Shown piece by piece: positions 3,324 to 52,920 of a stretch of 59,347 nt of DNA. Numbering within the stretch: the first letter of the stretch is position 1; each line of letters begins with the position of its first letter. The position numbers and the translations under genes were made by a program. The notes beneath the pieces were generated by a model. That model was not told the origin of the DNA and ran no database searches. It worked only from the letters and a program-made list of their open reading frames with translations. This DNA comes from Faecalibacterium longum CLA-AA-H243 (lineage in GTDB: Bacteria > Bacillota > Clostridia > Oscillospirales > Ruminococcaceae), in the NCBI RefSeq assembly GCF_020687245.1, contig NZ_JAJEQG010000015.1, positions 1 to 59,347 of the forward strand. Direction: 5' to 3'.

Positions 3324-4652
3324 TTAAAGTTTGTCCTCTTTCATGTAGCGGATGAGCAGGGGCAGCTCATAGACCAGCATGGACAGCCAGCCGATGCCGT
3401 AGCTCACAGGCATGATTTGAAGGTCTACCTTGAGTACCAGCACCAGCACAGCGGCGGCGGCCACGCGGAAGCCCATGTTGAGCATACTGCTGTTCAGGGT
3501 GATCTTCAAATCGCCGAGGCCGCGGAAGCCGCCCTGGATGCCGTTGGTCACGCCGGGCATCAGGTAGAAGAGGGAGGCGCACCGCAGGAACTTGACGCCC
3601 AGGTCGATGACGGCGGGGTCATCCACGAAGAGGGAGATGATGGGACGGGCGAAGAGCAGGCAGACGGCCATCAGGCAGAAACCGTAGATGAGCTCGATGC
3701 GCAGGCCGCAGAAAAAGCCCTGACGCACCCGCTCCTTTTTGCCGGCACCGTGGTTCTGAGCCATCAGGGTGGTCATAGCGTGGGCGATGTTCTGCTGGGG
3801 CATATAGGTGAAGTCGTCCACCCGGCTGGCGGCGGTGAAAGCGGCCATTGCGTTGATGCCCAGAGTGTTGACGATGGCCTGCACGGCAATCTTGCCCAGC
3901 TGGACGGTGGCCTGCTGCATGGCGCTGGTCCAGCCGTACTGGACGGTGCTGCGCAGCAGAGAGCCGTCAAAGACGAGCCAGCGTCGCCCCAGCTGAAGGA
4001 CGGGGACTTTGAACTGGATGTAGACGACGCAGAGCACACAGCAGAGCGCCTCGCTGAGGACGGTGGAGAGGGCGCAGCCTTCGCTGCCCCAGCCCAGCAC
4101 CTCGACAAAGAAGAGGTCGCCGCCGATGTTCAGCACCGAGCTTATCATCAAAAAGTAAAGGGCGCTCTTGCTGTCGCCCAGCGCCCGCATGGTGGCGGCG
4201 AGAAAGTTGTAAAAGAAGGTGAAGATGAGGCCCGCAAAGACGATGCGGAGGTACTGCACCGCGATGGGCAGGATCTCTTCCGGAACCTGCATCAGCCGGA
4301 GCAGCGGCGTCGCCAGCAGAACGCAGAGGGCCGAAAAGACCAGCGAGAACACCGTGCCTGCGATGGCAGTGGTGGAGACCTGACGCTCCACGCGCTGGGT
4401 GTCTCCGGCACCATAGGCCGTGCTGACAAGGATGCCGGCACCGAGGCAGAGACCGTTGATGAAGAGGATGGCCAGCGTCATCAGCGGGTTGGAGGTGCCG
4501 ACGGCGGCAAGGGCGTCTTCGCCAACAAATTTGCCCACGATGATGCTGTCGGCGGCGTTATAAGTGAGCTGGAACAGGTTGCCCAGCACCAGCGGGATGG
4601 TGAATTTGACCAGAAGGGGCGTGATGGCTCCGGTCGTCATGTCTTTTGTCAT
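3324..4652 (-). CDS. MATE-family multidrug/metabolite exporter
   Basis: The 442-residue protein is a polytopic membrane protein of the MATE family, which exports cationic compounds or metabolites using Na+ or H+ gradients. It has about 12 hydrophobic segments in two similar halves, and the N-terminal stretch LLVKFTIPLVLGNLFQLTYN, followed by ADSIIVGKFVG, is characteristic. AAGGAA sits just upstream of the ATG. It lies 21 bases downstream of the PLP-fold gene on the same strand, so the two are probably co-transcribed. The substrate cannot be told from sequence. Confidence 0.9.
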   Translation of the reverse strand: MTKDMTTGAITPLLVKFTIPLVLGNLFQLTYNAADSIIVGKFVGEDALAAVGTSNPLMTLAILFINGLCLGAGILVSTAYGAGDTQRVERQVSTTAIAGTVFSLVFSALCVLLATPLLRLMQVPEEILPIAVQYLRIVFAGLIFTFFYNFLAATMRALGDSKSALYFLMISSVLNIGGDLFFVEVLGWGSEGCALSTVLSEALCCVLCVVYIQFKVPVLQLGRRWLVFDGSLLRSTVQYGWTSAMQQATVQLGKIAVQAIVNTLGINAMAAFTAASRVDDFTYMPQQNIAHAMTTLMAQNHGAGKKERVRQGFFCGLRIELIYGFCLMAVCLLFARPIISLFVDDPAVIDLGVKFLRCASLFYLMPGVTNGIQGGFRGLGDLKITLNSSMLNMGFRVAAAAVLVLVLKVDLQIMPVSYGIGWLSMLVYELPLLIRYMKEDKL

Positions 4653-4673: not shown

Positions 4674-5582
4674 TTATAGTATGTTCTGGCGTGCGCTGAA
4701 CACGGCCAGTGCCGAACGGCTTTTGCCGTTTGCGATAAGCTGGGCCGCTGCGTGAAGGGCGGCACCTGCGCTGGGGGAGGCCGGGATGGCATCGGTGCGC
4801 AGGACCCGCTGCGCCGCCCGGACGGAATCGGCGGTGGTGACGGCAGCGATGTTGTCCACTACATAGGAGTTGTAGTTGCCGGGAACGAGGCCGAAGCCGA
4901 TGTCCGGGATGCCATGGGAGCCAGTGAGGCCGCTGCTCAGGGCCTGACTCTCGTAAGGCTCCACTGCAACGATGCGGACGTCATTCGTCCACGCCTTGAC
5001 CGTTTCGCCCACGCCGGTGATGGTGCCGCCGCTGCCCACGCCGATGACGATGCAGTCCACGATGCTGGAACCCTCCCGCGCGATGGAGCGCACCAGTGCA
5101 GGCCCTGTCACCCGGCGGTGATAGGTGGGGTTGTCGTCGTTGTTGAGCCAGTCCATATAGTACCAGCCCTTTTCGGCGGCGGTGGCTTTTGCCAGCGCCC
5201 GTGCGCCTGCAAGGCCCGCCTGGGCCGGGGTATGGATGATCTGCGCTCCGAGGCGGAGCAGGCTCTCCTGCCGCATGGCGGGGGCGTCCTCCGGCATGAC
5301 CAGCGTCACCGGGTGGCCCGCCGTCAGCCCCGCCAGCGTCAGCGCTGTGGCAAAAGGCCCTGACACGGCCTCCACGATGGTCTGGCCGGGGGTCAGCGCC
5401 CCGCGCTCAAGGGCCAGCGCCAGCATCCCCTCAGCCAGCTCGTCCCGCGCCGTGCCGGTGGGGCCGTTGTAGTTCAGATAGGCGTACAGCCGCCCCCGCA
5501 GCCCGCAGGCCGCAAGATAGCCCCGCAGCTCGACGATGGGGCCGGGCAGCAGGGTCTGGTAGATGTTGGGGTAGATAGGCAC
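4674..5582 (-). CDS. Cysteine-synthase-like PLP-fold protein lacking the catalytic lysine
   Basis: This 302-residue protein aligns throughout with O-acetylserine sulfhydrylase/cysteine synthase (fold-type II PLP enzymes). It has the pattern ERGALTPGQTIVEAVSG and the phosphate-binding loop GSGGTITG (about residue 185). The PLP-lysine motif, normally NPxxSxKDR, reads GPTGTARDE, so Arg46 stands where the Schiff-base lysine should be. The substrate loop TSGNT is VSGPF (73-77). The GCG-CGG-GAC codons were checked on the DNA. No other lysine occurs in the N-terminal domain. It is therefore likely a non-catalytic or repurposed homologue. It starts at GTG (5582) with AGGAG 7 bases upstream and heads a two-gene unit with a MATE exporter. 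Confidence 0.82.
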   Translation of the reverse strand: MPIYPNIYQTLLPGPIVELRGYLAACGLRGRLYAYLNYNGPTGTARDELAEGMLALALERGALTPGQTIVEAVSGPFATALTLAGLTAGHPVTLVMPEDAPAMRQESLLRLGAQIIHTPAQAGLAGARALAKATAAEKGWYYMDWLNNDDNPTYHRRVTGPALVRSIAREGSSIVDCIVIGVGSGGTITGVGETVKAWTNDVRIVAVEPYESQALSSGLTGSHGIPDIGFGLVPGNYNSYVVDNIAAVTTADSVRAAQRVLRTDAIPASPSAGAALHAAAQLIANGKSRSALAVFSARQNIL

Positions 5583-5624
5583 GGGCGGTCTCCTTTCGCG
5601 TCCGGGGGAAAGCTTACGCCTATA

Positions 5625-5653
5625 ACTTTAACGCAAAGGAGAGGAAGCGTCAA
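5625..5653 (-). promoter_or_regulatory. Promoter of the PLP-like/MATE operon
   Basis: On the minus strand, -35 TTGACG (plus positions 5648-5653) and -10 TAAAGT (5625-5630) are separated by 17 bp, about 40 bases upstream of the GTG start. Confidence 0.7.
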
Positions 5654-5800: not shown

Positions 5801-6184
5801 ATGGCAAAAGACTTTGAAATGGGCTATCTGCTCGATTTTTACGGCGAAGTGCTCACGCCCAAACAGCGCGAGATGCTGCGCCAGTATTACAACGATGACC
5901 TCTCCCTCAGCGAGATCGGAGAAAACTTCGGCATCACCCGGCAGGGGGCGCGGGACGCCATCAAGCATGGCGAAACGGCCCTCAAGGAGCTGGAAGAAAA
6001 GGTCGGCTTCGCGGCCCGGTACCGCCGGGTGCAGCAGACACTGGAAGAGCTGGAGCAGCTGGTCATCGACGCCCGGTTTGAATGCACCGGCCCGAACGCC
6101 CGGCTGACCACCACCGAGTATGCCGCCACTCTGAATAAGATGCTGGGGCTCATCCGCTCCATCGACGAAGTGAATGAGAGCTGA
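5801..6184 (+). CDS. ylxM: YlxM-family putative SRP-associated DNA-binding protein
   Basis: The 127-residue protein belongs to the YlxM (UPF0122) family, encoded next to ffh in most Firmicutes and reported to act with the signal recognition particle. It has a sigma-70 region-4-like helix-turn-helix (LSEIGENFGITRQGARDAI, about residues 32-50) preceded by the typical LTPKQREMLRQYYNDDLS. GGAGG lies 17 bases upstream of the ATG with a weaker AGGAC closer. It is the first gene after a strong promoter and is followed 27 bases later by ffh. Confidence 0.9.
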   Translation: MAKDFEMGYLLDFYGEVLTPKQREMLRQYYNDDLSLSEIGENFGITRQGARDAIKHGETALKELEEKVGFAARYRRVQQTLEELEQLVIDARFECTGPNARLTTTEYAATLNKMLGLIRSIDEVNES

Positions 6185-6211: not shown

Positions 6212-7567
6212 ATGGCATTTGAATCTTTGACCGACCGCCTTGCCGGTGTGTTCAAAAAGCTGCGCGGCCACGGCAAACTGAGCGAGGCGGACATCAAAGC
6301 CGCCATGCGCGAGGTCCGGATGGCCCTGCTGGAAGCCGACGTCAACTACAAAGTAGCGAAGGACTTCTGCGCAAAGGTCTCCGAGCGCGCCATGGGCCAG
6401 GAGGTCATGGAGAGCCTGACCCCTGCCCAGCAGGTCGTCAAGATCGTCAACGAGGAGCTGGTCGCCCTGATGGGCGGCGAGGAAGCCCCTCGTCTGGTCA
6501 TCAAGAACAAGGGCCAGACCATCATCATGCTCTGCGGCCTGCAGGGCAACGGTAAGACGACCCACGCAGCAAAGCTTGCAAAATACTACATCAAGCAGGG
6601 CCGCCGCCCGATGCTGGTGGCCTGCGACATCTACCGTCCGGCCGCTATCGACCAGCTGCAGGTGGTGGGCAAGCAGGCCGGTGCGCCGGTATTCACCCTG
6701 CCCGGCGAAAAGCCGCCTGCCATCGCCAAAAAGGCGCTGGCCCACGCCAAGGACTACGGCAACGACATCATCATCCTCGATACCGCAGGCCGTCTGCAGA
6801 TCGATGAAGTGCTGATGCAGGAGCTGGTCCAGATCAAAGAGGCTGTCCCCGTGGACGAGACTCTGCTGGTCGTGGACGCCATGGCCGGTCAGGACGCCGT
6901 GAACGTCGCCAAGACCTTCAACGAAACGGTCGGCATCGACGGCATCATCCTCACCAAGACCGACGGCGATACCCGCGGCGGCGCAGCCCTCTCGGTGCTG
7001 TCTGTCACCGGCAAGCCCATCAAGTTCCAGGGTACCGGCGAAAAGCTGGATGACCTCGAAGTCTTCCATCCCTCCCGCATGGCAAGCCGGATCCTCGGCA
7101 TGGGCGATGTGCTGAGCCTCATCGAGCGCGCACAGGATGCCGCCGACGAGAAGCTGGCCGAAGAGACCGCCAAGCGGATGATGGAAAACAAGTTCGATAT
7201 GAACGATATGCTGGCCCAGTTCGCCCAGATCCGCAAGATGGGCGGCGCGGGTGCCATGCTGAGCATGATGCCCGGAATGTCCGGCATCGACGCCAGCCAG
7301 ATCGACGAGAAAGCCTTCGACCGCATCGAGGCCATGATCTACTCGATGACCAAGGCCGAGCGCGAAGACCCCTCCATCATCAACCCCAAGCGCAAGCGCC
7401 GCATCGCTGCGGGCAGCGGCACTCAGGTGTCTGATGTCAACAAGCTGCTCAAGCAGTTTGAGATGATGCAGAAGATGATGAAGCAGTTCAAGAAGAGCCC
7501 CAAGGGCTTTGCCCGCAAGCTGGGCGGCCTGATGGGCAACCCGGGCGCCTTTAGAGGCATGAAATAA
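6212..7567 (+). CDS. ffh: Signal recognition particle GTPase Ffh (SRP54)
   Basis: Ffh binds 4.5S/scRNA and the signal peptides of nascent membrane and secreted proteins, and delivers ribosomes to FtsY at the membrane. The 451-residue protein has the N-domain, the G-domain P-loop GLQGNGKTT (109-117), DTAGR, and TKTDGDTRGGAALS. The C-terminal M domain is methionine-rich and ends in a Lys/Gly tail. All GTPase motifs are intact. AGAGGAG precedes the ATG. It shares the ylxM promoter and runs into rpsP; ftsY is not in this window. Confidence 0.97.
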   Translation: MAFESLTDRLAGVFKKLRGHGKLSEADIKAAMREVRMALLEADVNYKVAKDFCAKVSERAMGQEVMESLTPAQQVVKIVNEELVALMGGEEAPRLVIKNKGQTIIMLCGLQGNGKTTHAAKLAKYYIKQGRRPMLVACDIYRPAAIDQLQVVGKQAGAPVFTLPGEKPPAIAKKALAHAKDYGNDIIILDTAGRLQIDEVLMQELVQIKEAVPVDETLLVVDAMAGQDAVNVAKTFNETVGIDGIILTKTDGDTRGGAALSVLSVTGKPIKFQGTGEKLDDLEVFHPSRMASRILGMGDVLSLIERAQDAADEKLAEETAKRMMENKFDMNDMLAQFAQIRKMGGAGAMLSMMPGMSGIDASQIDEKAFDRIEAMIYSMTKAEREDPSIINPKRKRRIAAGSGTQVSDVNKLLKQFEMMQKMMKQFKKSPKGFARKLGGLMGNPGAFRGMK

Positions 7568-52661: not shown

Positions 52662-52669
52662 CTTTTTAT

Positions 52670-52920
52670 AAATGCAAGGAAAAAGAGTGTGCGTCGTTTT
52701 CGCCATCCAGAGAGCCGGGGGCTGCTGAAAACCCGGTATGGCGGTGCGGCGTGCTGTCGCTTTTGAGCAGAGGCGGGGAAACAGGAGTAGTCGCCTCCGG
52801 GTCTGCCCCACGTTATCGGGGCATCAAGGGGCATACGGCAGAAAGCCGTGTGCAATTTGGGTGGTACCGCGGTTATATTACAGCCGTCCCATGGAACGCT
52901 CCGTGGGGCGGCTTTTTTCG
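52670..52920 (+). ncRNA. T-box leader of valS
   Basis: The leader has the T-box antiterminator sequence TTTGGGTGGTACCGCGG (52856-52872), which pairs with uncharged tRNA. It is followed by the terminator GCCG...CGGC stem (52883-52912) and TTTTTT. Stem I is recognisable by AGAGAG near 52710. I place the specifier codon as GUC (52756-52758) in the lower internal loop opposite GAGT, which matches valine. An alternative GUG (52744-52746) is in the next loop; both are valine codons. Low charged tRNA-Val would allow read-through into valS. Confidence 0.9.

Follow-up and report, generated by a model that had tools for sequence, protein, structure and literature searches.

The window, a stretch of 59,347 nucleotides from Faecalibacterium longum CLA-AA-H243, carries on its minus strand an open reading frame that translates into 302 residues, among them ...NYNGPTGTARDELAEG..., ...VEAVSGPFATAL... 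and ...GVGSGGTITG.... A ribosome-site-like sequence, AAAGGAG (5590–5596), stands ahead of the GTG start, and a promoter-like site was recognized as well. On the same strand, 21 bases past the stop codon, lies a gene for a MATE family exporter, and a ylxM-like gene and ffh form a divergent operon on the other side (Table 1). At gathering scores, Rfam detects nothing in the window apart from a T-box leader at 52668–52894 (+), with 104.1 bits. As this sole match is distant, control of the gene by a known RNA leader was rejected.

Table 1. Genes and sequence features at the locus, in window coordinates.
Feature	Position	Strand	Evidence and remarks
MATE family exporter gene	3324–4652	−	TIGR00797, 233 bits against a cut-off of 147; possible operon partner
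Putative R-type OASS-fold pseudoenzyme gene	4674–5582	−	302 aa, GTG start, stop included; Pfam PALP, PDB alignment, model
Codon 271, Ser at the PLP-nitrogen serine, kept in the window copy	4770–4772	−	Alignment; ungapped stretch against PDB chains
Codons 183–187, GSGGT phosphate-binding loop, kept in the window copy	5022–5036	−	Alignment
Codon 145, Trp at the OASS Gln142 position	5148–5150	−	Alignment
Codons 73–78, VSGPFA replacing the substrate loop TSGNTG	5349–5366	−	Alignment
Codon 46, CGG, Arg at the PLP lysine position	5445–5447	−	Alignment, genus motif lines, codons
Promoter-like site TTGACG-N17-TAAAGT	5625–5653	−	25 of 26 distinct genus rows have a site of this form
ylxM-like gene, divergent neighbour	5801–6184	+	YlxM model, 78.5 bits, just below the cut-off of 80
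ffh (SRP54), second gene of the divergent operon	6212–7567	+	TIGR00959, 588.7 bits, over the cut-off

The 302-residue protein matched Pfam PALP (PF00291, fold type II) with 146.4 bits against a cut-off of 35 (1.5e-42), and alignment with PDB chains identified cysteine synthases as its nearest solved relatives. An AlphaFold2 model built from 53 natural sequences reached a mean pLDDT of 95.1 and a pTM of 0.92, and the PDB structures closest to it are CysK chains (TM-score about 0.9, about 30% identity). Two NCBIfam CysK models gave 199.6 and 183.4 bits, far below their cut-offs of 344.15 and 350.95. Among the OASS features, the phosphate loop G[TS]GGT is present at residues 183–187, and both the lysine of PxxSVKDR and TSGNT are absent. 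In an alignment with OASS chains of known structure, the Schiff-base lysine of NPxxSxKDR corresponded to Arg46, the Asn of TSGNT to Pro76 and the phosphate loop to GSGGT. The preliminary description of this DNA had read an arginine in place of the PLP lysine and a phosphate-binding loop that is kept, and it was correct in both. The lysine that binds PLP as a Schiff base in OASS is Lys41, as described in PMC3141655; a protein without Lys46 would therefore form no internal aldimine. Sequence and model together suggest a pseudoenzyme, in which an essential catalytic residue is replaced and the fold is otherwise intact. Annotation by similarity alone would name the product a 'cysteine synthase' and so give a wrong picture of sulfur metabolism in a major genus of the human gut.

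Orthologues with at least 58% identity were detected in 28 of the 31 genomes of our genus set (the window's own included; some Faecalibacterium records, such as L102, L111 and L150, lie outside this set), and all 28 are free of internal stops. Residue 46 is Arg in 25 of them and Lys in three (G008, G017 and G018); the Arg codon is CGG in 19 of the 23 distinct Arg sequences and CGC in the other four. The gene is missing from G019, G023 and G027, where the sequence ahead of ylxM holds no remnant of it, and it is thus dispensable in these three genomes. One of them, G027 (L192), is 99% complete and belongs to the same genus group; a search with the window protein at 0.001 found nothing in it, hence no CysK, and it has no cysE over the cut-off either. 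This genome may have an unusual sulfur metabolism or may be misplaced.

Beyond the genus, 51 of the 396 genomes drawn from the wider family matched at 1e-52, covering 14 of 126 genera, with residue 46 read in those loci among them that were fetched. An order-wide draw gave matches in eight of 394 genomes, and the two that lie outside the family are Asn-loop, Lys-bearing proteins. Other genera with members among the best 80 of at least 526 relatives are Fournierella, Gemmiger, Ruthenibacterium and Subdoligranulum. In the open-access literature, no title or abstract start dealt with a lysine-less OASS paralogue in Faecalibacterium, which is not proof of absence.

After identical cores had been collapsed (31 of 146 sequences, then nine of the 20 added, were dropped), 126 sequences were sorted by position 76 into 30 rows with the substrate-loop Asn and 96 that lack it by construction. 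Ser (46 rows), Thr (20), Ala (18), Pro (8), Gly (3) and His (1) take its place in the Asn-less rows, whose position 46 is Lys in 68, Arg in 24, Ala in two and Leu and Val in one each. All 30 Asn-loop rows carry Lys46. A tree made by a quick method comprised 109 rows, namely 95 Asn-less rows and 14 of the 30 Asn-loop rows; L149, which is short (237 aa), was left out. The Asn-less rows, which span several genera, formed one clade against the 14 Asn-loop rows (SH-aLRT 100), in a tree that carried a warning of long branches meeting at the base of this clade. Sorting by position 76 hence reflects descent. Three CysK-like proteins with the odd loops SAGNAG, TGGNCG and SGGNQG (L155, L172 and L173) keep both Lys and Asn and group among the Asn-loop rows. 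The replacement of TSGNT by VSGPF, singled out in the preliminary description, is present in the window protein but not peculiar to it, since loss of the loop is common to the whole clade and predates that of the lysine.

Within the Asn-less clade, a genus clade (SH-aLRT 100) contains 23 Faecalibacterium Arg rows and three Lys rows. The Arg rows form a clade of their own (SH-aLRT 100), referred to here as the R clade, with the Lys rows L026, L027 and L028 outside it. Arg had a separate origin in L061, and the rows with Leu, Ala or Val make up another clade (SH-aLRT 95). The Lys/non-Lys label needs three changes on the tree, so the lysine was lost at least three times, twice to Arg and once in the Leu/Ala/Val clade. 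As the sequences place it, the order is loss of the substrate-loop Asn first and of the lysine later, at least three times. The separate clade with Ala, Val or Leu at the PLP lysine position (L065, L146, L066 and L062) has GSAGT or GTSGT loops and is not beside ylxM-ffh where this was testable.

That close relatives might keep the lysine had been named in advance as a sign of a sequencing error or strain mutation. It is indeed kept in three species of the genus, but they branch outside the Arg clade; this and the presence of Arg in 25 genomes, found when the same substitution was sought in relatives, identify it as an evolutionary step and rule out either an error or a strain mutation. The state before (Lys) and the state after (Arg) occur in one genus, for the most part at a single locus, and are surrounded by a Lys-bearing clade; this coexistence is the main interest of the window protein. 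It makes the order substrate loop, lysine, phosphate loop directly testable with present-day orthologues.

Several other positions changed along with the lysine. Gly185 of the phosphate loop is replaced by Ala, Cys or Ser in 12 of the 28 rows without Lys46; none of the 98 Lys rows deviates from Gly there (68/68 Asn-less, 30/30 Asn-loop). The 23 R-clade rows have GSGGT in 16 cases and GSAGT in seven. At the position of OASS Gln142, all 24 Arg rows have Trp, L061 with its separate origin among them; the 72 other Asn-less rows never do. Ser271 aligns with the serine that contacts the PLP nitrogen, which is Ser275 in the cysteine synthase of T. cruzi according to PMC10233618; it is kept in 62 of the 67 readable Asn-less Lys rows versus 18 of the 28 rows without Lys46, and it has become Ala or Cys in six of the 23 R-clade rows. 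An independent-pairs test gave p 0.5 for both Gly185 and Trp145, where three losses put 0.05 out of reach, and p 1 for Ser271, with one pair opposite in direction. Besides position 46, by which the Lys and Arg groups were sorted and at which the Lys group is invariant by construction, none of the 302 positions fully separates the 68 Lys rows from the 23 Arg-clade rows. That Arg46 never varies in the R clade says little by itself, as 125 of the 302 positions are invariant there. Our own reading is that Lys-type members probably still bind PLP and that Arg-type members need not.

A lysine elsewhere in the protein that might form the Schiff base, the other refutation foreseen at the outset, was sought by alignment and not found. 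Only Lys196 among the four lysines is Lys in 23/23 R-clade rows, and across all 126 rows, those of CysK among them, its column contains nothing but Lys or Arg. It is therefore not a substitute that arose with the loss of Lys46, and a replacement lysine was rejected. The loss of Schiff-base chemistry in the Arg-type (R-type) protein is well supported at the sequence level.

Selection has acted on the gene after this loss. The 23 Arg rows give 253 pairs, and dN/dS (NG86) across all of them ranged from 0.02 to 0.44 with a median of 0.29; the three closest rows gave 0.02–0.03. Asn-less Lys pairs have a lower median (0.15, 386 usable close pairs) than the R clade; Asn-loop pairs had a median of 0.27 (81 usable). 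The promoter-like site has the form TTGAC-N17/18-TA with a conserved spacer in 25 of the 26 genus rows, from which the pattern itself was drawn without a chance control. The strict pattern occurs in none of the 70 other Asn-less rows, and similar sites are found in Fournierella-type rows. One or both of ylxM and ffh adjoin the gene in 85 of the 96 Asn-less rows; they were not found beside it in ten, and one contig was too short. Sorted by residue 46, adjacency holds for 24/24 Arg, 61/68 Lys and 0/3 Ala/Val rows. A functional tie to SRP through ylxM-ffh was discarded, the arrangement being taken as inherited gene order. That the gene works is indicated by purifying selection together with the conservation of the promoter-like site and of the gene order, and such selection makes a non-catalytic role likely.

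The MATE gene has a narrower distribution. It lies on the same strand, 17–203 bases beyond (match end to match end), in 21 of the 28 genus genomes that carry the OASS-like gene, or 21/25 of the Arg-type and 0/3 of the Lys-type genomes. MATE orthologues with at least 72% identity occur in 21 of the 31 genus genomes, always beside an Arg-type gene and nowhere else. The three genus genomes without the OASS-like gene are also without such an orthologue, and two Lys-type genomes have only a 44–45% relative located elsewhere. No MATE gene was flagged anywhere in the loci read from other genera, where the loci alone were read. The orthologue is missing from four of the 25 Arg-type genomes, so it is not an obligate partner, and because the Arg rows form one clade, the adjacency may trace to a single event.

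We consider it probable that the Arg-type protein is an OASS-fold pseudoenzyme with a ligand-binding or regulatory role, and that it signals ligand occupancy to a partner, for which the MATE exporter is the most plausible choice. The sequences show that a CysK-like clade lost the substrate-loop Asn, most of its members retaining the PLP lysine. Within Faecalibacterium, three Lys lineages split off before Lys changed to Arg, with Trp at the Gln142 position in all Arg rows. Since then purifying selection has preserved the gene next to the neighbours it had before, and the genome encodes a canonical CysK besides. The Arg-type product would form neither an internal aldimine nor an alpha-aminoacrylate and would carry out no beta-replacement chemistry. 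Arg46, the surviving anion-binding GSGGT loop and the stacking face of Trp145 may together hold a small anionic ligand, perhaps aromatic or B6-like, and an open/closed movement of the OASS type might report its presence to the partner, for which MATE is the best candidate. Non-covalent PLP binding by the window copy, which keeps GSGGT and Ser271, is possible. The pair of Arg46 and Trp at the Gln142 position is found in two independent lineages. A bolder version, that the paired changes of Lys to Arg and Gln142 to Trp made a cofactor-free ligand sensor that forms a sensing and export unit with a newly acquired MATE protein, seems to us quite unlikely.

Other roles have to be weighed against this. 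As an allosteric or decoy subunit, the protein could tune CysK or CysE by pairing with it, much as plant TSB-like does for tryptophan synthase alpha. Candidates for pairing are at hand, as the window genome encodes a canonical CysK (462 bits against a cut-off of 351) and a CysE over the cut-off, the latter present in 29 of the 31 genus genomes; moonlighting as partners is known for OASS proteins, as PMC5562914 recounts, and PMC12727527 describes a pseudoenzyme of PLP-enzyme origin in such a subunit role. The groove residues, however, are replaced. In OASS, the carboxylate of the CysE C-terminal Ile bonds with Thr68 and Thr72, and Asn71 and Gln142 line the groove, according to PMC3805590; the corresponding residues of the window protein are Val73, Phe77, Pro76 and Trp145. 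With these four positions replaced, neither an amino-acid carboxylate nor a CysE C-terminal Ile would be held in the OASS manner. The CysE frame of the window genome moreover ends in ...QRKH and not in Ile, and no cysE or second cysK was noticed beside the gene, in neighbourhoods that were not searched for cysE. We regard pairing of this kind as unlikely but not far-fetched. A catalytic role is less probable still. The protein would then remain a PLP or PMP enzyme whose chemistry needs no internal aldimine; Arg46 would serve as an electrostatic catalyst, and the Lys-bearing relatives would represent the ancestral enzyme. The GSGGT and Ser271 retained by the window copy agree with it, as do the relatives: outside the R clade, Lys occurs in 68 of the 73 Asn-less rows, and because all 68 keep Gly185 and 62 of the 67 readable ones Ser271, they probably bind PLP. 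Yet the substrate-loop Asn is gone throughout the Asn-less clade, and the loss of Lys was accompanied by relaxed PLP contacts.

Binding without Schiff-base chemistry, with a sensor, scaffold or PLP-carrier role, was the suggestion of the preliminary description. Its general part stands, as no internal aldimine is possible at residue 46 and the gene is under purifying selection; the PLP-carrier version is weaker. A non-covalent carrier or B6 reservoir could be useful to a genus in which PdxS (TIGR00343) was over the cut-off in none of the 31 genomes, so that dependence on B6 salvage is probable as far as the PdxS pathway, the only one searched, can tell. The window copy keeps GSGGT and Ser271, and GSGGT is intact in 16 of the 23 R-clade rows. 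A carrier should nevertheless keep its PLP contacts, and these are relaxed in several rows without Lys46, Gly185 being lost in seven and Ser271 in six of the 23 R-clade rows. B6 dependence does not explain the change from Lys to Arg either, since the three Lys-bearing congeners also lack PdxS. We hold a carrier role to be very improbable, and the same is true of a paralogue decaying without function, to which we give hardly any credence. Its absence from G019, G023 and G027, with no trace before ylxM, would suit decay, but the uninterrupted reading frames in 28/28 orthologues, the low dN/dS (median 0.29; 0.02–0.03 in the closest three rows), the promoter-like site and the conserved gene order all argue against it.

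The ligand-binding or regulatory pseudoenzyme that we favour can be set beside known systems. CysK/OASS (PF00291; TIGR01139, TIGR01136) has the same fold, order of motifs and phosphate loop, and the window protein is 31% identical to the CysK of its own genome. It differs from CysK/OASS in having no PLP lysine, in the replacement of the Asn and Thr of TSGNT, in the change of Gln142 to Trp and in the loss of the Arg of KDR. Two further systems are CYSL-1 of C. elegans, which presumably retains the PLP lysine, and TSB-like of eudicots, a paralogue of tryptophan synthase beta that shares fold type II. CYSL-1 is a CysK homologue that acts with EGL-9 in the H2S/hypoxia response, and it resembles the window protein in that it is said to lack biosynthetic activity and to work by protein binding (as given in PMC5562914). 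It binds the C-terminal Ile of its partner, whereas the OASS residues that grip the carboxylate are replaced in the window protein. The likeness to TSB-like is that of a dead PLP-enzyme paralogue with a working role; TSB-like is dead through positions 190 and 386, and loss of the PLP lysine is not reported for it in the parts of PMC12727527 drawn on here. The partner of TSB-like is known, and for the window protein the adjacency of the MATE gene alone suggests one. By analogy, the fate proposed here, from enzyme to binding or regulatory pseudoenzyme, would have precedents in both CYSL-1 and TSB-like.
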